Of a stretch of 64,000 nt of DNA, positions 7,195-17,917 are shown piece after piece. Made by a program: the position numbers and the translations under genes. Each line of letters begins with the position of its first letter. The first letter of the stretch is position 1. This DNA comes from Erythrobacter sp. BLCC-B19 (GTDB taxonomy: Bacteria; Pseudomonadota; Alphaproteobacteria; Sphingomonadales; Sphingomonadaceae). Below the pieces are notes generated by a model. That model was not told the origin of the DNA. It searched no databases and was given only the letters and a program-made list of their open reading frames with translations. The stretch spans positions 952,001 through 1,016,000 of the forward strand of contig NZ_CP117516.1 in NCBI RefSeq assembly GCF_028621955.1. Reading direction: 5' to 3'.

Positions 7195-7614
7195 ATGTCG
7201 ATCTGCAAGACAGGCCTTGTGGCGTGCGTACTGCTTGCTGCTGCTCCGGTGGCCGCGCAGGATCTCGTGCATGAGCCGATCAGCCCCACCTTTGGCGGCA
7301 ACCCCTTCAATTCGCAGCACGTGCTTGGCGTTGCCAACGCCAACAACGATTTCCGCGATCCGCGCGCCGCCAGCAGCAACTCGCAGGCCGACATCTTCGC
7401 CCGCCAGCTGCAATCGCGCCTGCTCTCGGCGCTGTCGTCGCAGATCGTCGATGCCATCTTCGGCGAGAACCCGCAGGAAAGCGGCACGATCAGCTTTGGC
7501 GGTCAGACCATCGAGTTTTTCCGCACGCTGGAAGAAGTGACCCTCATCATCAAGAACGACACCACGGGTGAGGAAACCCGCATCGTCGTTCCGCTGTTCA
7601 TCGAAGTGAACTGA
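7195..7614 (+). CDS. csgF: Curli assembly protein CsgF
   Basis: This 139-residue secreted protein couples the CsgG pore to the nucleator CsgB at the cell surface. A signal peptide (MSICKTGLVACVLLAAAPVAAQ) ends near residue 22. The mature start carries the CsgF signature region SPTFGGNPFNSQHVLGVANA, equivalent to the FGGNP segment that inserts into the CsgG pore in E. coli. The C-terminus is a beta-rich domain. The start at 7195 gives a correct signal peptide; the longer frame upstream does not. csgG follows 8 nt later. Confidence 0.9.
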   Translation: MSICKTGLVACVLLAAAPVAAQDLVHEPISPTFGGNPFNSQHVLGVANANNDFRDPRAASSNSQADIFARQLQSRLLSALSSQIVDAIFGENPQESGTISFGGQTIEFFRTLEEVTLIIKNDTTGEETRIVVPLFIEVN

Positions 7615-7622
7615 GGCCGGAA

Positions 7623-8597
7623 ATGCGCAAGCTCGCCTCCCTTGCTCTGGCATCCGTGACCGCGCTGGCGCTGTCGGGTTGCATGAGTATGCCGCAGGAC
7701 GGCCGCAATTCGATGGCGACCACCACCAGCCTCGCCTATTTCCCGAAGAAGACCCAGACCCAGACCCTGCTCAACCAGCTGCCTGCTCCGCAGCGGCCGG
7801 TGGCGATCGCGGTCTATGGCTTCACCGATCAGACCGGCCAGTTCAAGCCGAGCGAAACCGGGCAGACGCTGTCGCGCGCCGTGACGCAAGGGGCCAGTTC
7901 AATGCTGGTCAAGGCGTTGCAGGATGCGGGCAACCGTGGCTGGTTCACCGTGGTCGAGCGCGAGCGGCTGGATAACCTTCTGAAGGAACGCCAGATCATT
8001 GGCGAGATGCGCAAGCGCTATCTCGGCGAACAGGAAGTCGATCCCAATGCCCTGCCCGCCTTGCTGTTTGCCGGCGTGCTGCTGGAAGGCGGGATTGTCG
8101 GCTACGACACCAACACCGTCACCGGCGGCGCAGGCGCGGCCTTCCTCGGGATTGGCGCGCGCACCGAATACCGCCAGGACACCGTGACCGTCTATCTGCG
8201 CGCCGTTTCGGTGCGCACCGGCGAGGTGCTGGCCAACGTCACCGCTTCCAAGACCATCGCCAGCCAGGCGCTCGGCGCCAGTGCCTTCAAGTTCGTGGCC
8301 TTCCGCGAACTGCTTGAGGCCGAGGCCGGGATCACGTCGAACGAGCCCGATCAGGTCGCCTTGCAGCAGGCGATCGAAAAGGCCGTCTATGGCCTCGTGC
8401 TTGAGGGCGTGGACCTCGATCTGTGGCGCTTCAACGACATGGCCGCCGCCATGCCGCTGCTTGCCGCCTACCGCGCCGAGCGCGATGGACTTTATGACGC
8501 CAGCGACATCCAGAAAGCGGTCAAGCGGGCGGGTTCGCTCACGGCCCTGACGGTGGTCGATGGCGACAAACAGGATGACCGGAGCGACGGTTCGTAG
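7623..8597 (+). CDS. csgG: Curli secretion channel lipoprotein CsgG
   Basis: This 324-residue outer-membrane lipoprotein forms the nonameric export pore for curli subunits. A lipoprotein signal peptide ends in LALSGC with the lipidated Cys at position 20. The conserved VAIAVYGFTDQTGQFKPSE and the VVERERLDNLLKERQII helix are typical of CsgG. So is the GIGARTEYRQDTVTVYLRAV barrel strand. The length is slightly above E. coli CsgG (277 aa), with a C-terminal extension after the WRF segment. It is translated with csgF from one transcript. Confidence 0.95.
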   Translation: MRKLASLALASVTALALSGCMSMPQDGRNSMATTTSLAYFPKKTQTQTLLNQLPAPQRPVAIAVYGFTDQTGQFKPSETGQTLSRAVTQGASSMLVKALQDAGNRGWFTVVERERLDNLLKERQIIGEMRKRYLGEQEVDPNALPALLFAGVLLEGGIVGYDTNTVTGGAGAAFLGIGARTEYRQDTVTVYLRAVSVRTGEVLANVTASKTIASQALGASAFKFVAFRELLEAEAGITSNEPDQVALQQAIEKAVYGLVLEGVDLDLWRFNDMAAAMPLLAAYRAERDGLYDASDIQKAVKRAGSLTALTVVDGDKQDDRSDGS

Positions 8598-8710
8598 CTC
8601 TGCAAAGGAATTCCCGGGGGGGCTTCATCGTCTGACGGGATAGACCAGAAGAGCACCGCAAGGTGCCGGCTGGGCCGCAAAATAAAGCACGCAAAGGAGC
8701 GGCAACTCCG

Positions 8711-8983
8711 ATGCGCGCGAGGAAAAGGTATGCGATCACCTGTTTGGTCCGGCGTCTGACGCGCCGTGGCCAACGCCGGGTATCGCCTATCGTTAGGGCG
8801 GATGCAACCATGAATACCCGGCGGAAATTGACGGCCATCTCCAGCACGACCCACCCGGCCCGCATTGGCCTTGTGGTTGGCCATGCCCGTCCTTCCCGCA
8901 CCAACCGCACCCGCATCACCATTCCGGCACCAGCGACGCAAGTACGTCAGCTGGGCCTGAACCTGTCGCACAACTTCAAGTGA
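8711..8983 (+). pseudogene. Possible small basic ORF or degenerate remnant between csgG and csgA1
   Basis: The 409-bp gap 8598-9006 contains one open frame of 90 codons starting at ATG 8711, 11 nt after AAAGGAG (8693-8699). The product would be very Arg-rich and unlike curli proteins, and I recognise no family. The last residues (RQLGLNLSHNFK) resemble the final strand of an outer-membrane beta-barrel. That hints at a decayed barrel gene, but the similarity is short. An equally good reading is a non-coding leader of csgA1. The gap shows no convincing terminator. Confidence 0.2.
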
Positions 8984-9006
8984 TCCAAAGCAGAAGGAAC
9001 TAGGCA

Positions 9007-11091
9007 ATGAAGAAGGCAATCAAAGCAGGCGTGTCGCTGATGGCGCTGTCCCTCGCGGGCGCGGCACTGGCGCAGGCCGTGCCCAACACGTCCGATGTCG
9101 AACAGACCGGCGTGAACGAAATCGCTGAAGTGACCCAGAGCGGCACCGGCACCAACGACAGCGAAATCGATCAGGACGGCAGCGGCAACACCGCAACCGT
9201 CACGCAGACGAGCGTTTCGGGCGGCACCAACGTTTCCGACATCCTGCAAGCCGCTGGCTCCAGCGGCAACACCGCGACCGTCGAACAGACGGGCGAAGGC
9301 AACGACAGCGACGTGACCCAAGAGGGCACCGACAGCACGGTCGAAGTCACGCAGGACGGCACCGACAACGTTTCGGGCGTGACCCAGAACGCGCTGGAAG
9401 CCACCACGATCGTCACGCAGAATGGCAATGCCAACTTCTCGAGTGTCGGCCAGACCGGCGATAACGCCACCGTGAACGTCACCCAGACCAACACCGAGCC
9501 CATGATCGACGGCAACGACTCCGCCATCACCCAGAGCGGCGACGGTTCGTCGGCCACCGTCGGCCAGACCGGTCAGGGCAACATCTCGAACATCACCCAG
9601 ACCGGTGCCGGTTCGCTGACCGAAGTCACTCAGGATGGTGTCGGCAACGACAGCAGCGTGATCCAGGGCGGATCGCTCGCCGACGCCTTCGTTTCCCAGA
9701 CGGGTGAAGGCAACGAGTCCGACATCGGCCAGACCGGCGTCAGCTCGGTGACCGACATCGTCCAGAACGGCGAACTCAACAAGTCGACCGTGACCCAGTC
9801 GGGTTCGGGCTCGGTGACCAATGTCGATCAGGATGGCGACCGCAACAACTCGACCGTGACCCAGTCGGCCAGCCTTGCCGATGTCACCATCGACCAGAAC
9901 GGCACGCGCAACACTTCGACCGTGGGCCAGAGCGGCCTCAACTCGTCGACCACTGTCACGCAGACCAACAGCGATCCCATGCTGGTCGGCAACACCTCGA
10001 CCGTGACGCAGAGCGGCATCAACTCGGATACCGACGTCACCCAGAACGGCAGCCTCAACAACTCGGGCATCACCCAGTCGGGCCTCGGTGCGGTTGCTGT
10101 GATCAGCCAGGATGGCGAAGGCAACATCTCGACCGCGAGCGAAACCGGCGCGGCCTCCAACCTGGCTGTCACCCAGCTGGGCACCGGCAACGATTCGGGC
10201 GTGACCCAGAACGGCGCCGGTTCGGAAGTCGACATCTTCCAGGACGGTGAGACCAACGTCTCGCGCGTCACCGGCACCGGTGCAGGCTCGACCGTCAACG
10301 TCAGCCAGACCGGCACCGACAACAACAGCACCGTCGGCCAGACGGGCGTGCTGCTCGAAGGTCTGACCAACGCCGACGTCATCCAGAACGGCGAACGCAA
10401 CACCTCGACGATCAGCCAGCTGGCTGGCCGCGCCGACGTGCTGGTCGATCAGGACGGCAACGACAACTTCGCTGATGTCCGCGGCACCGCCAACGGTTCG
10501 GATGCGACCATCAATCAGGATGGCAACAGCAACCGTTCGGAAGTCGATCAGAACTCGGCGCTGCTCCGCGTCGGTTTCGTCAACCTGCCGATCATCAACG
10601 AAAACCAGAGCGTGACCGTCACGCAGGATGGCGACAACAACCTGTCGAAGGTCGATCAGTACGGCCGCAATCAGGTGGCTTCGATCACCCAGATCGGTGA
10701 AGGCAACACCTCGGGCGTTCCCGGCGGTGCGACCGGCATCACCCAGGTGGGCGAAAACCAGCTCGCGACCCTGCTGCAGGAAGGCGATGGCAACACCTCG
10801 ACGATCAACCAGGGCACCAATGGTGACTTCAACGTGGTCCGCACCACGGCGAGCGACGGCAACATTGCCGACGTGATCCAGTCGGGTGACGATGGCGAGT
10901 CGAGCGTGAACCAGAACGGCGACTTCAACACCGCCAATGTGAACCAGCTCGACGGCGGTATGTCGAACATCTCGGCCATCACCCAGAACGGCAACAACAA
11001 CATTGCCGACGTGACCCAGAGCGCCACCGGCAACAATTCGGCGATCAGCCAGACGGGCAACACCCACACGGCGACGGTGATCCAGAACTAA
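9007..11091 (+). CDS. Giant curlin-repeat amyloid subunit 1 (CsgA-like)
   Basis: This 694-residue secreted protein is built almost wholly of curlin repeats after a signal peptide (about residues 1-22, ending AALAQA). The recurring strand unit is x-V-x-Q-x-G-x-x-N-x-S/A of 10-11 residues. About 60 such units fill the protein, which corresponds to about 30 beta-helix layers; E. coli CsgA has five in 151 residues. I see no Cys or Trp. There is a higher-order repeat: the break VTQTNTEPMIDGN at residues 158-170 recurs as VTQTNSDPMLVGN at 317-329, exactly 159 codons later, with flanking units in register. It is expected to be exported through CsgG and to polymerise on the cell surface. Confidence 0.9.
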   Translation: MKKAIKAGVSLMALSLAGAALAQAVPNTSDVEQTGVNEIAEVTQSGTGTNDSEIDQDGSGNTATVTQTSVSGGTNVSDILQAAGSSGNTATVEQTGEGNDSDVTQEGTDSTVEVTQDGTDNVSGVTQNALEATTIVTQNGNANFSSVGQTGDNATVNVTQTNTEPMIDGNDSAITQSGDGSSATVGQTGQGNISNITQTGAGSLTEVTQDGVGNDSSVIQGGSLADAFVSQTGEGNESDIGQTGVSSVTDIVQNGELNKSTVTQSGSGSVTNVDQDGDRNNSTVTQSASLADVTIDQNGTRNTSTVGQSGLNSSTTVTQTNSDPMLVGNTSTVTQSGINSDTDVTQNGSLNNSGITQSGLGAVAVISQDGEGNISTASETGAASNLAVTQLGTGNDSGVTQNGAGSEVDIFQDGETNVSRVTGTGAGSTVNVSQTGTDNNSTVGQTGVLLEGLTNADVIQNGERNTSTISQLAGRADVLVDQDGNDNFADVRGTANGSDATINQDGNSNRSEVDQNSALLRVGFVNLPIINENQSVTVTQDGDNNLSKVDQYGRNQVASITQIGEGNTSGVPGGATGITQVGENQLATLLQEGDGNTSTINQGTNGDFNVVRTTASDGNIADVIQSGDDGESSVNQNGDFNTANVNQLDGGMSNISAITQNGNNNIADVTQSATGNNSAISQTGNTHTATVIQN

Positions 11092-11109
11092 GCATCGAAA
11101 CAATCGTGC

Positions 11110-11143
11110 CGGACGGGGCTCCGAGTGATGCCCCTCCGGTCCG
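11110..11143 (+). other. Imperfect GC hairpin between curlin genes 1 and 2
   Basis: CGGAC-GGGG (11110-11118) pairs with CCCC-tccg-GTCCG (11131-11143), leaving a 4-nt bulge and a 12-nt loop. No U-run follows. It could act as a processing or partial-termination signal that sets relative subunit levels. The csgA2 start follows 18 nt later. Confidence 0.4.
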
Positions 11144-11161
11144 TCGAAAGGATATGATACC

Positions 11162-12709
11162 ATGAAGAACATCATCATTTCCGGGGCTTCGGTGCTGGCT
11201 CTTGCCATCGCCGCTCCCGGCCTCGCTCAGAACGTGTCGACGATTGACCAGACGGGCACCAGCAATGGCGCAACGGTCACGCAAGCCGGCCAGAACACCT
11301 CGGACATCGACCAGAACGGCATGACCAACGCCGCGACCGTCGATCAGGATGGCACCGGCGGCGAATCCACGATCGCACAGACCGGCAACACCAACCGCGC
11401 CAACACCACGCAGGACACCATCGATGGCCTCGCCGAAGTGGAGCAGACCGGTAACAGCAACCAGTCCGACATCACCCAGACCGACGAGAATGCGGGCGGC
11501 ACCCTGGGCGTGCCGGGTTCGGATCCGGAAGCCTTCGTCACGCAGACCGGCAACTCCAACGAGTCGACCGTGACCCAGACCAACAGCGCTGTCAGCTTCG
11601 ACCTGATCGCCAGCGTCAACCAGAGTGGCGACGGCAGCAAGTCGACCGTGACCCAGTCGGCCAGCGGTGCAGGTTCGGGCGATCTCAACGCCAACGTCAC
11701 TCAGGCCAATGGCGCGACCTCGACCGTCACGCAGGTGGCAAGCGGGGCATCGGCGATCAACCAGGATGCGATCATCGATCAGGACGGGGTCAACACCTCG
11801 ACCGTCGAACAGACCTTCCTGCTGGGCAATTCCAACCGGTACAGCGCCACCGTGTTCCAGCGCGGCACCGGCAACGAATCGACCGTGACTCAGGACGACG
11901 TGCTGCCCGCCACCGGCTTCCAGGACGAGCGGCTGAGCGCGACCGTCACCCAGACGGGTGATGGCAACACCTCGACCGTGAACCAGCTCAACAAGATCGC
12001 CAATGCCTCGGTTACCCAGTCGGGTAACAACAACGAGAGCGAGGTGATGCAGAACGGTTCGAACTTCATGTCGGCAACCGTGCTGCAGACCGGTGACGAC
12101 AACTTCTCGAAGGTCGATCAGATCGGCAACACCCAGACGGCTGACATCTTCCAGGCTGGCAACAATGTCCGTTCGACGGTCAACCAGACCGGTGGGCGCA
12201 GCAATGCGGCCTATATCGACCAGCTGGTGGGTTCGGACGGCTCGCAGTCGACCGTCACCCAGAACGGTGTGGGCGCCACGCATCAGAACAATGATGTCTT
12301 CGTGACCCAGTCGGCGATCAACAACATCTCGGTCGCGACGCAGACCGGCTTCAACAGCCGTGCCGAAATCACCCAGTCGGGTGCCGGCAACGACAGTGAA
12401 GTCACCCAGACCGGCAATGTCGATCTGGCACCGACGGCGGTCAGCAACCGTGCAACGGTCAATCAGACCGGCACCAACGGCGAATCCGACGTGATGCAGT
12501 CGGGCTCGCTCAACGATGCGCTGCTGAACCAGGGCGGGGACGACAACCTCGCCGACGTCAAGCAGACCGGTATCGGCAACGATTCGGACATCACCCAGAG
12601 CGGTCTGTCGAACGATGCACTGGTGACGCAGAACAACAACGGCAACGTGTCGAACATCGTTCAGTCGGGCACCGGCGGTTCGGTGACGGTCACGCAGGGC
12701 GGAATGTAA
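11162..12709 (+). CDS. Giant curlin-repeat amyloid subunit 2 (CsgA-like)
   Basis: This 515-residue curlin-repeat protein has a signal peptide (MKNIIISGASVLALAIAAPGLAQ) and then continuous strand units such as TIDQTGTSNGATVTQAGQN. By length it has room for about 22 beta-helix layers. It follows csgA1 by 70 nt and has the same composition, dominated by Asn, Gln, Ser, Thr and Gly. It differs from subunit 1 in the placement of longer inter-repeat loops, for example GTLGVPGSDPEAF near residue 115 and DVLPATGFQDERL near 245. It also lacks an obvious 159-residue super-repeat. This suggests divergence after an old duplication, not a recent copy. It is probably a co-polymerising major subunit. Confidence 0.9.
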   Translation: MKNIIISGASVLALAIAAPGLAQNVSTIDQTGTSNGATVTQAGQNTSDIDQNGMTNAATVDQDGTGGESTIAQTGNTNRANTTQDTIDGLAEVEQTGNSNQSDITQTDENAGGTLGVPGSDPEAFVTQTGNSNESTVTQTNSAVSFDLIASVNQSGDGSKSTVTQSASGAGSGDLNANVTQANGATSTVTQVASGASAINQDAIIDQDGVNTSTVEQTFLLGNSNRYSATVFQRGTGNESTVTQDDVLPATGFQDERLSATVTQTGDGNTSTVNQLNKIANASVTQSGNNNESEVMQNGSNFMSATVLQTGDDNFSKVDQIGNTQTADIFQAGNNVRSTVNQTGGRSNAAYIDQLVGSDGSQSTVTQNGVGATHQNNDVFVTQSAINNISVATQTGFNSRAEITQSGAGNDSEVTQTGNVDLAPTAVSNRATVNQTGTNGESDVMQSGSLNDALLNQGGDDNLADVKQTGIGNDSDITQSGLSNDALVTQNNNGNVSNIVQSGTGGSVTVTQGGM

Positions 12710-12715
12710 TGCCTG

Positions 12716-12750
12716 GAGCCCCGGGCGCGGTTTTGATCGCCCCGGGGCTC
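12716..12750 (+). other. Strong GC hairpin between curlin genes 2 and 3
   Basis: A perfect 10-bp stem, GAGCCCCGGG (12716-12725) with CCCGGGGCTC (12741-12750), encloses a 15-nt loop. A U-rich tract lies in the loop, not after the stem. It is most likely an mRNA-stabilising or attenuating element inside the curli transcript. Confidence 0.5.
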
Positions 12751-12826
12751 TCTCGGCCCAGTCGCCTTGTGCCTGTGCCGACGTCGCATTCACTTCCAAG
12801 CCATTCGTTCTTCGAAGGAATTTGAG

Positions 12827-14485
12827 ATGAAGTATGCAATTCTGGCCGGCGTATCAGTGCTGGCCTTCGCGATGGCGGCACCTGCTGCTGCGCAGGACAA
12901 TTCGTCCACCATCACCCAGACGGGCGGAACCCAGACGGCAACCGTCCAGCAGACCGGCCAGAACGCCGCTGCGACGGTGGTTCAGGGCAATGCCGACAAT
13001 ACCACTACGATCACGCAGGAAGCCAATTCCGGCGGCGATGCCACGGTGACTCAGACCGGCGCCGACAATAATGCAACCGTGGGCCAGACCGCGCTCAATT
13101 CGGTCGCCGAAATCGAGCAGTCGGGTGATCGTAACGAGGCATCGCTGATCCAGGGCCGTGCTGCCAACAGCAACAACCAGACCAACGGCCAGCAAGCACT
13201 GCTGGTGCAGGCCGGGGATGACAACGGCATCATCGCCAATCAGTCGGGCACCAGCAGCGATCTCAGCATTTCGCAGAGTGGCAACAACAACGATGCGACG
13301 CTGACCCAGTCGGGCTTCGACAACAGCTCGGGCGACGATACGAATCCGGCGCTTGTCGGGATCGACCAGTCGGGCAACGACAATGATGCCTTCGTGACCC
13401 AGTCGGGCCAGCTGTCGGACGCTTTTGTCAATCAGGGCGGCGACTTCAACATCGCCACGATCAATCAGACGGTCAACAACCTGCCCAATCCTCCGGGCGG
13501 CAATGATCCGCGCGTTGCGACGGCGACCATCAACCAGGGCGGTGATCGCAACGAAAGCACGATCAACCAGAACGGCCCCGGCACGGCGACCATCTCGGCC
13601 CGCCTGATGACCGCCACCAGCACGCAGAACGGTGACGACAACGACAGCACCATCACCCAGGCCAACACCGCGGTTCTGGCCGGCGCCTCGTCGAATGCCG
13701 CAACTGTCACCCAGAGCGGAACCTTCAACGACTCGAGCGTCAATCAGGACGGCGTCGAGCTGGATGCGACCATTGAGCAGAACGGGGATACGGGCGAATC
13801 GACCGTGATCCAGTCGGGCACGGGCAGCGATGCCTTCGTCATTCAAGGTGGTTCGGGCCAGATCGCCAGCGTGACCCAGTCGGGCACCGACAACCTGTCG
13901 CAGAGCATCCAGAGCGGCAGCGGCAACGAATTGACCGTGACGCAGAGCGGCACCGGTGGTGATTCGGGCATTGTGCAGGGCAGTTCGGGCAACGTCGCCT
14001 TTGTCGACCAGATCGGCACGGGCGGTTACAGCCGGGTGTACCAGGGCGATGTCGGCCCGGGCAGCAACAACACCGCCGATGTGACCCAGACGGGCCTCAA
14101 CAACTCGTTCATTGGTCAGGGCACCGGAAGCCGCAACTCGGCGACGGTGATCCAGACCAACACCGGCGGGCCGGTCAACACCAGCACCGTGCAGCAGGGC
14201 GATATCGACTTGGTCGGCAACAACGTGCTCGGCGATGACAACACGGCTGCCAACATCACTCAGACCGGCAGCGGCAACTCGAGCACTGTGACCCAGTCGG
14301 ACACGCTGTCCCTGGGCGGCTTCAACTCGGCTGAAGTGACCCAGCTGGGCGCCGACAACCTCAGCACCGTCACGCAGAACGGTGCCAACAACTCGGCCGA
14401 GGTCTCGCAGACCGGCGATGATCACCAGTCGTTCGTCACCCAGACGGGCACTGGCAACATGGCCACGGTCACACAGGGTATGTAA
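12827..14485 (+). CDS. Giant curlin-repeat amyloid subunit 3 (CsgA-like)
   Basis: This 552-residue curlin-repeat protein has a signal peptide (MKYAILAGVSVLAFAMAAPAAAQ). The ATG at 12827 is preceded by GAAGGAAT at suitable spacing, and the upstream in-frame Met gives a Cys/Arg-rich extension that would block export. Repeat units such as STITQTGGTQTATVQQTGQN run to the C-terminus (TVTQGM), with room for about 24 layers. Some units carry longer loops, such as NNLPNPPGGNDPRVA near residue 220. Subunits 2 and 3 both end on VTQG-Met, which suggests close paralogy. The gene lies 117 nt after subunit 2. Confidence 0.9.
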   Translation: MKYAILAGVSVLAFAMAAPAAAQDNSSTITQTGGTQTATVQQTGQNAAATVVQGNADNTTTITQEANSGGDATVTQTGADNNATVGQTALNSVAEIEQSGDRNEASLIQGRAANSNNQTNGQQALLVQAGDDNGIIANQSGTSSDLSISQSGNNNDATLTQSGFDNSSGDDTNPALVGIDQSGNDNDAFVTQSGQLSDAFVNQGGDFNIATINQTVNNLPNPPGGNDPRVATATINQGGDRNESTINQNGPGTATISARLMTATSTQNGDDNDSTITQANTAVLAGASSNAATVTQSGTFNDSSVNQDGVELDATIEQNGDTGESTVIQSGTGSDAFVIQGGSGQIASVTQSGTDNLSQSIQSGSGNELTVTQSGTGGDSGIVQGSSGNVAFVDQIGTGGYSRVYQGDVGPGSNNTADVTQTGLNNSFIGQGTGSRNSATVIQTNTGGPVNTSTVQQGDIDLVGNNVLGDDNTAANITQTGSGNSSTVTQSDTLSLGGFNSAEVTQLGADNLSTVTQNGANNSAEVSQTGDDHQSFVTQTGTGNMATVTQGM

Positions 14486-14495
14486 GCCCGAAGCG

Positions 14496-14524
14496 CCCGG
14501 GCGGGAGCAATGCTCTCGCCCGGG
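14496..14524 (+). other. Strong GC hairpin between curlin gene 3 and csgB
   Basis: The stem pairs CCCGGGCGGGAGC (14496-14508) with GCTCTCGCCCGGG (14512-14524), 13 bp with one G-U pair, around a 3-nt AAT loop. No U-run follows. Of the intergenic hairpins in the curlin array this is the most stable by inspection. Confidence 0.55.
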
Positions 14525-14551
14525 GCAGCTTTATGCAGTATGGAAGGGTGA

Positions 14552-15202
14552 ATGATGGCGCGATCCCCCCTCGATGTGGTCCGCAGCGGCACCTTGGCCG
14601 CAGCGCTTATCGCCGTCCCCGCCCTCGCGCAGAGCGAAGAGCCCTCACGCGGTGTCTTCGTCGCACAGATTGGCGATGGGAGCCGCGCGACCGTCAGCCA
14701 GCAGAATTCCGACAGCCTCGCCAACATCGTGCAGGAGGGGAACGACAACCAGGTCGACCTCGCCCAGACCGGCATCGCCGCGCACCGCGCCCGGATCGTG
14801 CAGGATGGCGACAACAATGTCGTCAAGGCAGAGCAGGATGGTGCCGGCGCGACCGACCTTGCGCTGTTGCAGGACGGCTTGGGCAATACCGCCCTCGTGC
14901 TCCAGCGGGAAAGCTCAGCGACCGCTACGACCAGCGCCGAGATCATCCAGAGCGGCAATGGCAATCGCATCATCCTTGCACAGGATGGCAGCGACAACAC
15001 CGCCAGCCTGACCCAGCAGGGCGACGGCAACACCATGACCGCGACCCAGATCGACAGCGGCAATACGTTGCAATGGACCCAGAACGGCAATGCTCTGGCT
15101 GATCTCGTGATCTCGCAAACGGGCGGCGCGACGATGGAGATCACGCAGAGCAACACCGGCGAAGGCGTGCAGTTCATGCCGCCAGCCGGTGCAGGCGGCT
15201 GA
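14552..15202 (+). CDS. CsgB-like curli minor subunit / nucleator
   Basis: This 216-residue secreted protein has a signal peptide (to about residue 26, ALAQS) and about eight curlin layers, with units such as IVQEGNDNQVDLAQTGI. It is shorter than its three neighbours. Unlike them it has charged and less regular repeats (HRARIVQDGDNNVVKAEQDG), features that fit the CsgB nucleator role. The C-terminus (EGVQFMPPAGAGG) departs from the repeat. Two ATGs (14552, 14555) are possible; GGAAGGGTG lies just upstream. CsgB function is inferred from size, charge and operon position. Confidence 0.7.
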   Translation: MMARSPLDVVRSGTLAAALIAVPALAQSEEPSRGVFVAQIGDGSRATVSQQNSDSLANIVQEGNDNQVDLAQTGIAAHRARIVQDGDNNVVKAEQDGAGATDLALLQDGLGNTALVLQRESSATATTSAEIIQSGNGNRIILAQDGSDNTASLTQQGDGNTMTATQIDSGNTLQWTQNGNALADLVISQTGGATMEITQSNTGEGVQFMPPAGAGG

Positions 15203-15218
15203 GGTCGGCGGATCGGGG

Positions 15219-15998
15219 ATGATGCAGCCGATGCGCCTTGCTGGCCTTGGGGCAGGTTTTGGGTTGGCCCTCGCCAGTCTTACAACGGGTGCGTCCGCGC
15301 AGCAGGACGACGCGCTCCCGCCTGCCAGCCGCACCGAGGCGAGCCAGATCGAAATGCCGCAGGCCTCGGGCAGCAGCGCCGCAGGACGCGCCTATCTCGA
15401 CGAAAGCGGACGCCCCGCCACTGCCGCACAGCCGCGCGCCAGTCTGGTGCAGACCGCCGGCGGCCAGATCTCGCGCGGCGACAGCAACGCGCCCGCCAGC
15501 CAGATCAGCGCGCGCGGGCAAGGCGGGCCGGGCATGGTCCAGCTGTCCAAGGTCGATCTCGACGCCACCCTCGCGCAGCTTTCCCCGGCCGAGCGCCGGG
15601 TGCTGTTGCAGGCGATCGAGGGCACAGACATCTGCGATAACCCGCCCGATGTCCCGGCCATTCAGGCGCTCTGTCTCAACCGGATCGAGACCCGCTCGGG
15701 CGAGTTTGCCAATCTTGCGCCCGCCTCGGCGAGCGCCGAGGATCAGCTGCTGCGCGGCAATCTTGAGAGCACCTCGCTGCCCAGCGTCGCGCAGGTGATC
15801 GAACGGCTGGCGCGCGGCGGGGCATCAAGCGGGGATTTCAGCAATCAGGCCATCGCCTCGATCGCATTGGGCTCCAATCCGACCATCCAGCCTGCTCCCC
15901 CGCGCGAGGAAAAGCCCGAGAGCACTGCTGGTCTGGGCGAAGAGGCCCAGGCGCTGATCAATGCACTCATCAACCAGCTGGGAGGCGGCGCGCCATGA
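15219..15998 (+). CDS. Curli-operon secreted protein of unknown function, two conserved-looking Cys
   Basis: This secreted protein of about 259 residues has a signal peptide (MRLAGLGAGFGLALASLTTGASA). It has no curlin repeats. An Ala/Ser/Gln-rich linker leads to a compact central segment, KVDLDATLAQLSPAERRVLL, followed by a Cys pair in TDICDNPPDVPAIQALCLNR that could form a disulfide. The C-terminal part (GLGEEAQALINALINQLGGG) is helical. The start at 15219 follows GGCGGA; 15222 and 15231 are alternatives. The stop overlaps the next start (ATGA), so the two are translationally coupled. I do not recognise a named family. Export and position suggest a curli assembly or anchoring factor. Confidence 0.7.
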   Translation: MMQPMRLAGLGAGFGLALASLTTGASAQQDDALPPASRTEASQIEMPQASGSSAAGRAYLDESGRPATAAQPRASLVQTAGGQISRGDSNAPASQISARGQGGPGMVQLSKVDLDATLAQLSPAERRVLLQAIEGTDICDNPPDVPAIQALCLNRIETRSGEFANLAPASASAEDQLLRGNLESTSLPSVAQVIERLARGGASSGDFSNQAIASIALGSNPTIQPAPPREEKPESTAGLGEEAQALINALINQLGGGAP

Positions 15999-16351
15999 CC
16001 CCTGCCCTGCCGCCCTATGCTGCGGCGCTGGCTCTGCTTGCGCAGGCAACAGGAGCCCCGATGACCGACCAGCCCCACGCGCTCTCGCTCGATGTCCACG
16101 AACACGACGGCCTGGTCGAAGTGCAGCTGATCGGCCTGTCGCCGCGCGCGCAGGCGGTCAGCTATGCGCTCGAAGTGACCGGGCAATCGACCGCGCGCCA
16201 CCGCGGCTCGACCACGCTCGCGCCCGATACCCGCGCGGTGCTTTCGACCATGCGCACAAAGGCAGGGGCGGACTGGTGCGTGAAACTGGTCGCCGAAGAA
16301 GAAGGCCGCGCGCCATACGAGATCACGCGCGGGGCTTGCCCCACCCCGTAG
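15995..16351 (+). CDS. CsgH-like periplasmic curli inhibitor (candidate)
   Basis: This 118-residue exported protein overlaps the previous stop by ATGA. A short hydrophobic N-terminus (PPYAAALALLAQATGAP) serves as signal or anchor. The remainder is predicted all-beta, with strands LSLDVHEHDGLVEVQLIGL and QAVSYALEVTGQSTARHRGS, and two Cys (WCVKL, GACPTP) that could bridge. CsgH is the alphaproteobacterial counterpart of CsgC that keeps curli subunits from polymerising in the periplasm. Size, all-beta fold and operon position fit it. I cannot confirm homology by alignment, so the assignment is tentative. Confidence 0.5.
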   Translation: MTPALPPYAAALALLAQATGAPMTDQPHALSLDVHEHDGLVEVQLIGLSPRAQAVSYALEVTGQSTARHRGSTTLAPDTRAVLSTMRTKAGADWCVKLVAEEEGRAPYEITRGACPTP

Positions 16352-16363
16352 GTATTGTGCCGA

Positions 16364-17917
16364 TCAGGGGCCGAGCATCGGCGTGCTGATCTGCTCCATG
16401 TGCACCTTGTGCGCATTCTTGGGCCGGGTATCGGTAAGGCCGACATTGAACTCGTCATAGACCGGATCATAGCTGATCGGGATGCCCTGCGCCTGCAAGG
16501 CGGACAGCGCCACATAGGTGTCGCCCGCCGATGACTGACGGATGCGGGCCAGCTGGGCGGGATCATAGCGGTTGGCGAGCAGCTCGACCACCGAGCCGAG
16601 CCGTACCTTGAGCCCCTCGGGCGATTGCTGGAAATCGACCATGCCGGCAGTCTTGCCGTCAACCCGGGTGAGAAGCCGGGATGTGATGGTCTGCTGATAG
16701 CGGCTGCTCGCCGCGCCAGCGGGTGCGGCAAGCGCAGGTTTGGGTTTCGGCAAAGCGGCGACGGCCGCTGGTGCCGGTGCAGGAACGCTGGCGGGCTTTG
16801 CCGTCGGTGTCGGCGCGGCGACGGGGGCCGGAGCAGCCGCCGGGCGCGGCGCGGCAATCGGCGCGCGCGCGGCAGGCACCGCAGCAGCGCTCGCGCTGAC
16901 TGGCGCGGCCGGACGCGCAGCCGCTGCAAGCGGCGCGCTGGCGGGTGCGGAGGCCGGACGCGCAGCTGTGGCGGCGGGCGGCGCGGTTCGGGACGCGATG
17001 GTCTGCGCGGTGGTCACCTGATCGATCGCCCCGCGCGGCGCAGGCGCGCGGCCGGTGGCGCTGCCAGCGGCGGGCAGCGGGGATGCAGGAGCAAGCGTTG
17101 CCGTCGGCGTGACCTGCGGCGCCGATGGCGCTGCTGCCACTGGCGCGGGACGAGCAGCGCTCGCCGGGGTCGATGGCGCTGTCGGTTCTACCGCGACACC
17201 GGCGTTCACCCCGCCTGCGCTGATCGGTGCGGCAGGCACGGGCGCGGCAGCGGCAAGGCGCGCGGCTGGCGGCGCTGGCTCGGCTGCGGGGAGCTTGGCA
17301 GGTGCGGCGGCTCCGGTTGTCACCGCTACGGGCTGGGCCGGCAGGACGGCGCGGGCAACCGGCTCCACCTGCGGGGCGGACGGCGCGGTCACAGCGTCAA
17401 GCGCGCCCGCATCCTCGCCGAGCGCGGTGACGCGCGCGGCCGGAGCAACCAGCGCCGGAGCGCTGCTCTCGGCGCGCGGCAAGCTTGGCGGCGCAAGCTG
17501 CGCGGGCGGCATTTGCACAGGCGCCACAGGCTCGGGCAAGGGCGCAGGCTCGATCAGGCGTTCTGTCTGTGCCGGAAGGGTAGCAAGGCCCGCCGACGGA
17601 TTTGCGGCGATCAAGGCGGCATAGCGCACACCTGTCAGCGCAGGGCCAGATACCGCTGCAACGCCGAACCGTTTGGCGGCGGGATCCTTGGCCGGGACCG
17701 GAGGGGGCAGCCCGTCACGCCCGAGGCTCCCGTCGACATCGCCGGCACCCACCGAGAATTCCGGAACGGTCAGCGCAGCGATCACCACCACGCTGCCGGG
17801 GACGACCCGCGCCATCACCCGCCGACCCAGACCCTTGCGACGCACGGGCGCAACCGCGTCAGCGCCGTCTGCGCACGCGTCAGCCTCAGCATCGAGTGGT
17901 GGTCTGCAATCTGTCAC
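16364..17917 (-). CDS. Ala/Pro-rich membrane-anchored protein with conserved-looking C-terminal domain
   Basis: This 517-residue protein converges on csgH with a 12-nt gap. A basic N-terminus (RRKGLGRRVMAR, residues 27-38) precedes one transmembrane segment (VVPGSVVVIAALTVPEF), so it is probably a single-pass inner-membrane protein with a periplasmic body. Residues 70-400 are low-complexity Ala/Pro/Val, like a flexible spacer. The last 115 residues form an ordered domain containing DGKTAGMVDFQQSPEGLKVR, then LGSVVELLANRYDPAQLARI and a terminal segment rich in Tyr and Asp. The start codon is GTG. A TonB-like or secretin-associated spacer architecture comes to mind, but I recognise no family. 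A role with curli is inferred only from location. Confidence 0.6.
   Translation of the reverse strand: MTDCRPPLDAEADACADGADAVAPVRRKGLGRRVMARVVPGSVVVIAALTVPEFSVGAGDVDGSLGRDGLPPPVPAKDPAAKRFGVAAVSGPALTGVRYAALIAANPSAGLATLPAQTERLIEPAPLPEPVAPVQMPPAQLAPPSLPRAESSAPALVAPAARVTALGEDAGALDAVTAPSAPQVEPVARAVLPAQPVAVTTGAAAPAKLPAAEPAPPAARLAAAAPVPAAPISAGGVNAGVAVEPTAPSTPASAARPAPVAAAPSAPQVTPTATLAPASPLPAAGSATGRAPAPRGAIDQVTTAQTIASRTAPPAATAARPASAPASAPLAAAARPAAPVSASAAAVPAARAPIAAPRPAAAPAPVAAPTPTAKPASVPAPAPAAVAALPKPKPALAAPAGAASSRYQQTITSRLLTRVDGKTAGMVDFQQSPEGLKVRLGSVVELLANRYDPAQLARIRQSSAGDTYVALSALQAQGIPISYDPVYDEFNVGLTDTRPKNAHKVHMEQISTPMLGP

Follow-up and report, generated by a model that had tools for sequence, protein, structure and literature searches.

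Three tandem long curlins encoded in an Erythrobacter operon are of the usual size for their bacterial group and are startling only beside those of Escherichia coli. The operon occupies positions 7195 to 16351 of a 64,000-nucleotide stretch of Erythrobacter sp. BLCC-B19 (contig NZ_CP117516.1, positions 952,001 to 1,016,000), referred to here as the window. By sequence, the channel, adaptor, subunits and chaperone are all encoded, and the operon is very probably a complete curli (type VIII secretion) set of the CsgE-less alphaproteobacterial type, carried by an Erythrobacter-like member of the Sphingomonadales. A preliminary description of this DNA had singled out three tandem curlins of 694, 515 and 552 amino acids, here named A1, A2 and A3, and both the coordinates and the PF07012 repeats bear this out. 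Giant curlins prove to be routine, and settling that question constitutes the main value of the analysis.

Subunit length among relatives

Related loci were collected with a CsgG query, the best 80 of 90 being kept, and all counts given for 80 loci refer to these. The nearest belong to Erythrobacter donghaensis and a Porphyrobacter (CsgG 95% identical), and others come from Sphingomonas, Sphingopyxis, Novosphingobium, Brevundimonas, Asticcacaulis and the like. Curlin lengths were tabulated for 76 of the loci, leaving out three in which a curlin runs off the contig and one without any curlin. When divided at 310 amino acids, a boundary of the analyst's choice below which some proteins are possibly fragments, these loci contain 175 long curlins (324 to 1110 amino acids; median 557 amino acids, 21 layers) and 80 shorter ones, 68 of which have 6.5 to 8 layers. 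One to four long curlins occur in 74 of the 76 loci and none in the other two. The long-curlin lengths show no separate giant group, and A1, A2 and A3 stand at the 80th, 33rd and 47th percentiles.

Published surveys point the same way. One reports CsgA homologues with 4 to 62 repeats and a secondary maximum near 22 (PMC10192328), another 3 to 52 repeats with maxima at 3 to 8 and 9 to 14 (PMC12822426), and homologues with up to 22 repeats had been noted earlier (Dueholm 2012, PMC3521004). The proposal that subunit length is novel or outside the family range is thus not sustained, as the proteins fall inside the lengths of 175 relatives and within the published 4 to 62 repeats. The preliminary description had itself named routine lengths in the family as contrary to its case, and routine is what both the 80-locus survey and the literature indicate. 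It had also seen a conflict between such lengths and export through CsgG. That question is already published: a 2015 review (PMC4389571) raises the export problem for subunits 3 to 4 times larger, notes that many Alphaproteobacteria have no CsgE, and cites CsgA fusions that get through at up to 8 times the length, provided that they remain dynamic.

Composition of the operon

The operon comprises the following elements, where ORF7 denotes an unnamed open reading frame.

7195..7614, plus strand: csgF, 139 amino acids with a signal peptide; CsgG adaptor; PF10614 at 104 bits (cut-off 25.8)
7623..8597, plus strand: csgG, 324 amino acids; outer-membrane secretion channel; PF03783 at 212 bits
9007..11091, plus strand: long curlin A1, 694 amino acids; about 27 layers; 20 PF07012 stretches; no N22-like leader after the signal peptide
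11162..12709, plus strand: long curlin A2, 515 amino acids; about 20.5 layers; 13 PF07012 stretches
12827..14485, plus strand: long curlin A3, 552 amino acids; about 21 layers; 15 PF07012 stretches; frame open from a TTG at 12767
14552..15202, plus strand: short curlin, 216 amino acids; 7 layers; 6 PF07012 stretches
15222..15998, plus strand: ORF7, 258 amino acids; apparently secreted, judging by a signal peptide read by eye; Q-hydrophobic-S/T motifs in the N-terminal half, followed by a conserved two-cysteine block
15621..15749, plus strand: conserved block of ORF7, residues 134-176, from an alignment of 31 members
15995..16351, plus strand: csgH, 118 amino acids; alphaproteobacterial curli chaperone; NF041112 at 55.3 bits (cut-off 35)

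The short curlin, ORF7 and csgH go unmentioned in the preliminary description, as do the missing csgE and the additional curlin gene outside the window. Signal peptides of the curlins and of ORF7 were judged by eye. The csgH product gave no match in a Pfam scan at E<=1, and the NCBIfam models for CsgG and CsgF score below their cut-offs on the window proteins (191 bits against 505, and 27 bits against 171).

Convergent to the operon, on the minus strand at 16367-17917, lies a Pro/Ala-rich frame of 517 amino acids. Scans of Pfam and NCBIfam at E<=1 returned nothing for it, and several Erythrobacter-like relatives carry it in the same place. Outside the window, about 66 kb upstream of the operon, at G000:C1:891232-892722 (L089:3233-4723), lies another long curlin gene (496 amino acids from a GTG). 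Its surroundings, inspected by eye over 9 kb, contain no other curli gene and include a flagellin-like gene, likewise named by eye.

Curlin repeats and layer counts

The commonest distance between glutamines in A1, A2 and A3 is exactly 11 residues (36, 23 and 23 times), which implies two strands per 22-residue layer. Nearly the whole of the mature long curlins is covered by the repeats, in which N-x-S-x-V-T-Q often alternates with x-x-A-x-V-T-Q. Layers were counted from half-repeat motifs by a pattern-based finder that under-counts degenerate repeats or halves and may miss loop-rich proteins; it gave 27, 20.5 and 21 layers for A1, A2 and A3 and 7 for the short curlin, and 5.5 and 5.0 for the E. 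coli controls CsgA and CsgB. The repeats assumed in the preliminary description are therefore real, but its layer numbers of 30, 22 and 24, taken from length, are 1.5 to 3 too high, since length also includes the signal peptide and loop insertions and some halves are degenerate. No N22-like targeting leader was found in A1 to A3, where the first repeat lies at most about 5 residues from the presumed cleavage site of the signal peptide. Among solved structures, the best sequence match of A1 is the curlin 8c50 (E 5.6e-22).

Synteny, selection and divergence

Gene order in the relatives is csgF-csgG, long curlins (one to four as a rule), a curlin of about 7 layers, ORF7 and often csgH. CsgF adjoins CsgG in 79 of the 80 loci, ORF7 occurs in 65 and csgH in 52 (by a profile grown from the window copy), and the order curlin-ORF7-CsgH is kept in all 46 loci having both of the latter. 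Ratios of nonsynonymous to synonymous substitution rates (dN/dS) against five relatives indicate purifying selection, with 0.07-0.13 for CsgG, 0.39-0.73 for the long curlins and 0.32-0.38 for the short curlin. Long curlins diverge much faster than the channel: in these five relatives their identity to the best-scoring curlin, which is not established as the ortholog, is 41-73%, against 90-95% for CsgG.

This rapid divergence, as seen in surface adhesins, is what would be expected if the long curlins were single adhesin rods secreted onto the cell, with the 7-layer protein as an anchor, rather than fibre subunits. Such an arrangement is nevertheless very improbable, as the repeats retain the Q, N and G positions, none of the four curlins has another domain above its Pfam cut-off, and the proteins end in a repeat without any further C-terminal domain, like polymerising curlins.

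Neutral repeat expansion, with some long curlins as decaying copies, would in turn agree with the shifts in curlin copy number and length between close relatives, and two genomes of the order survey described below contain apparent operon remnants. In one (L177, from G714) the profiles find pieces of ORF7 and csgH only, with a CsgF piece in the genome survey; in the other (L178, from G859) the csgF and ORF7 profiles match one frame of 206 amino acids. Neither csgG nor a curlin was found in these two fetched stretches. However, all three long frames of the window are intact with dN/dS below 1, and the insertions and deletions that separate A1 relatives comprise some of whole 22-residue units and some of other sizes. 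Neutrality is accordingly hardly credible as an explanation.

CsgE and the proposed working of the system

CsgE (PF10627) was not detected in the genome of the window, while the E. coli control was positive. A CsgF match was present in 40 of 397 genomes drawn from the phylum, and 40 csgF stretches of up to 20 kb each were fetched from 39 of them, with the window's own genome left out and one genome represented twice; absence of CsgE in these other genomes means absence within such stretches. All 30 stretches from outside the class carry CsgE and none of the 10 from inside it does, one of the ten showing a sub-threshold CsgF match and no curli gene at all. The largest curlin per stretch measures 151-553 amino acids (median 313.5) in the 26 of 30 CsgE-bearing stretches with a recognised curlin, and 117-862 amino acids in nine CsgE-less stretches. 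Earlier work likewise describes CsgE as not a defining feature in Alphaproteobacteria (PMC3521004).

The export, folding and nucleation steps of the best explanation are taken from known curli biology and the literature, not from window data. Curlins would reach the periplasm by Sec and be kept disordered there by CsgH, which acts like CsgC (PMC5135000), before threading unfolded through the CsgG-CsgF pore. The 7-layer curlin would then nucleate, and each long curlin would fold on the growing fibre as a left-handed beta-solenoid of about 10-13 nm (4.8 A per layer), compared with about 2.4 nm. A longer subunit would bring more layers and leave the fibre cross-section unchanged. Length should add little cost at the pore, since chains would go through unfolded and singly and no CsgE cage has to enclose the whole subunit. 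The ordinary curli model covers every part of the operon but ORF7. The operon is still a good natural system in which to study how amyloid subunits of 500-700 residues, with neither a leader nor CsgE, reach CsgG.

Several points weigh against this account. Presence or absence of CsgE coincides exactly with the class boundary in the sample, and curlins of up to 553 amino acids also occur beside CsgE, so that its absence is not required for long subunits. The link between length and CsgE is a phylogenetically confounded trend rather than a causal one, and the candidate rule that long subunits require CsgE loss is weakened on both grounds. The predicted beta-solenoid fold of the long curlins rests on homology. 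Position and near-constant size suggest that the short curlin is a CsgB-like nucleator, yet it scores 61 bits with the NCBIfam CsgB model, below the cut-off of 165, while A1 passes both the CsgB and CsgA cut-offs and A2 passes that of CsgB narrowly; the two models consequently do not separate major from minor curlins here.

The CsgG eyelet

The eyelet of E. coli CsgG is formed by Tyr51, Asn55 and Phe56 as three stacked rings (PMC6957492; PMC7304575 gives the same residues in precursor numbers). An alignment of CsgG proteins places Ser, Thr and Leu at these positions in the window protein, with a one-residue insertion or deletion that leaves neighbours to anchor only the Phe56 position. There, Leu is present in 79 of the 80 related loci and Phe in one, compared with Phe in 27, Ile in three and Tyr in one of 31 CsgE-bearing loci (E. 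coli included); nine further CsgE-less stretches from inside the class have Leu in five cases and an aromatic residue in four. At the Tyr51 position, 78 of the 80 related loci have Ser or Thr. Tyr51 is an unfair yardstick, however, since just 9 of the 31 CsgE-bearing loci have Tyr. A pore with a Leu eyelet may be wider or gated differently.

The leucine could also mean a different pore, as part of a distinct curli class in which giant subunits would build long beta-helices ahead of fibre templating or independently of it, giving filaments of altered stiffness. This develops the suggestion of the preliminary description that the proteins might form very long pre-assembled beta-helices or filaments of different stiffness. 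A spread of lengths with conserved synteny, which it had put forward as the mark of such a class, is indeed present across Sphingomonadales and Caulobacterales-like loci, but the lengths do not leave the known family range. They run from 324 to 1110 amino acids without a giant group and overlap those of the CsgE-bearing stretches. Moreover, a model of a 15.5-repeat curlin fits the cryo-electron microscopy map of curli fibres (PMC10192328), and the narrow CsgG eyelet suggests export of an unfolded chain (PMC7304575). Pre-assembly is hence quite improbable, and export of unfolded chains followed by folding on the fibre is retained.

ORF7, a candidate curli component

Neither Pfam nor NCBIfam gives a match to ORF7 at E<=1, and when 31 members were compared with Pfam at E<=0.1, no family matched more than one of them. 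The titles, abstracts and passages covered, from mostly non-subscription literature, name no ORF7-like gene in published curli work. Two of the 65 ORF7-positive loci (L010 and L063) are partial or weak. Among the 15 loci without ORF7, five end at most 300 bases past the last curlin, six (L083-L088) have csgH and four (L058, L078, L080 and L081) show neither feature. In a survey of 297 genomes of the window's order (taken as Sphingomonadales), ORF7 was detected in 27. Each of these is one of the 34 genomes that have a CsgF match, and ORF7 was not found in the 263 without such a match; at most nine first-look candidates were scored per genome, which makes absences soft. In-frame stops interrupt three of the 27 matches, and the one in G859 looks like a remnant; two more cases, a weak ORF7 in G873 and an ORF7 fragment in G714, emerged when loci were read by hand. 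In a draw of 289 genomes from the class, six had a CsgF match and ORF7 appeared in the window's own genome only, so its range is limited. Its dN/dS is 0.30-0.36 against L009 (the operon of Erythrobacter donghaensis), L010, L011 and L015; the value of 0.69 against L012 comes from 74 matched residues, in a locus that breaks off shortly past the last curlin.

The protein combines a disordered-looking N-terminal half with a conserved block in which G134, D136, C138, C151, E156, R158, E173 and L176 are invariant across 31 members; the cysteine pair, with a spacing of 11-14 residues, is present in 65 of 66 sequences. Within the N-terminal half, Q-[ILVM]-[STG] occurs 164 times in 65 sequences, compared with a shuffle mean of 17 when relatives are counted as independent, and neighbouring motifs are 12 or 13 residues apart in 76 of 102 cases. 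Kinship was offset with a reduced set of 23 sequences below 45% mutual identity. Here Q-[ILVM]-[STGPY] occurs 60 times against 8.2 in shuffled sequences (standard deviation 2.8), a stricter form with V, L, M or I two before the Q occurs 30 times against 1.3, and 24 of 39 distances are 12 or 13; the looser motif is missing in two sequences and the stricter in six. The window ORF7 has four looser and two stricter motifs. A scan for triple motifs 11-14 apart, covering 129 loci and frames of at least 80 codons without curlin repeats, returned ORF7 members only, in 28 loci and the window, and no such frame in CsgE-bearing loci.

In 97 of 177 ORF7 motifs, V, L or M stands two residues before the Q, which gives a consensus [VLM]-x-Q-[LVI]-[ST] resembling the V-P-Q-Y peptide by which E. 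coli CsgA binds nine outer crevices of CsgG (PMC6957492); one ORF7 member reads VVPQLS. The pocket for CsgA Val3 on E. coli CsgG (I121, L172, L236 and W237; PMC6957492) stays hydrophobic, with W237 and L172 in 80 of 80 loci, Leu at L236 in 77, and Val, Ile, Leu or Met at I121 in all 80. This is not special to the clade, as the pocket is similarly kept in CsgE-bearing loci. The surroundings of CsgA Gln5 are not conserved: Gly32 is replaced by Arg in 73 of the 80 loci (Gly in 26 of 31 CsgE-bearing loci), and Thr31 and Asp238 vary, which makes it less likely that the same peptide docks in the same way.

Other identities for ORF7 were considered and rejected. An hhalign comparison of 66 ORF7 with 31 CsgE sequences gave a probability of 0.1, which speaks against a diverged CsgE, and profile comparison shows no similarity to CsgF or CsgH. 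The repeats are not curlin half-repeats, since their register differs, with the hydrophobic residue directly after the Q. The missing N22 was likewise dropped as a special feature, because N22 has been called an outlier among CsgA homologues (PMC10192328) and, by reading, curlins start with V-P-Q-aromatic in four loci only (L122, L123, L124 and L127), E. coli among them.

From its signal peptide, motifs and linkage, our guess is that ORF7 probably has a helper role in the periplasm or during export. A bolder proposal makes it an undescribed component of CsgE-less curli operons of Sphingomonadales and Caulobacterales-like bacteria, whose motifs would mimic V-P-Q-Y, dock multivalently on CsgG and deliver or gate the leaderless long curlins, taking over the targeting by N22 and CsgE. 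In sister-group loci L083, L084, L085 and L087, an unrelated, secreted-looking protein of about 180-200 amino acids lies between the short curlin and csgH. It has one or two [VL]xQ[IL]P motifs and a conserved block, QPTPExxAREIGPD, as if the role had been filled twice. The docking proposal is unlikely, the more so because the Gln5 surroundings of CsgG are not conserved, and the putative partner may be CsgG, the curlins or neither, given that curlin half-repeats also contain hydrophobic-x-Gln. If true, ORF7 as a targeting factor would represent a new curli gene in mostly environmental bacteria and a new handle on CsgG-based secretion.

Comparison with known curli systems

Like the curli system of E. 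coli K-12 (csgBAC, csgDEFG), the window encodes CsgG, CsgF, a chaperone (CsgH here, CsgC there) and curlins with 22-23-residue repeats, among them a short one that accompanies the major subunits. The window differs in having Ser/Thr/Leu instead of Tyr/Asn/Phe at the eyelet positions, subunits of 20-27 layers instead of 5 and the extra ORF7, and in lacking an N22 leader and, in its genome, csgE (no search of the window was aimed at csgC or csgD).

Closer parallels are offered by the long-curlin systems of Dueholm 2012 (PMC3521004) and Sleutel 2023 (PMC10192328), with up to 22 and up to 62 repeats, respectively, Alphaproteobacteria without csgE, and csgH beside csgA/B; an ORF7-like gene is not mentioned in the passages covered. 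Dueholm 2012 suggested csgH as a stand-in for missing csgE and csgF, whereas the csgH of the window coexists with csgF and csgG. The long, fibre-forming curlin of Pontibacter korlensis (PMC10192328), which is probably the solved entry 8c50, shares the N-x-hydrophobic-x-hydrophobic-x-Q halves, with 15.5 repeats there and about 20-27 layers in each of three proteins here.

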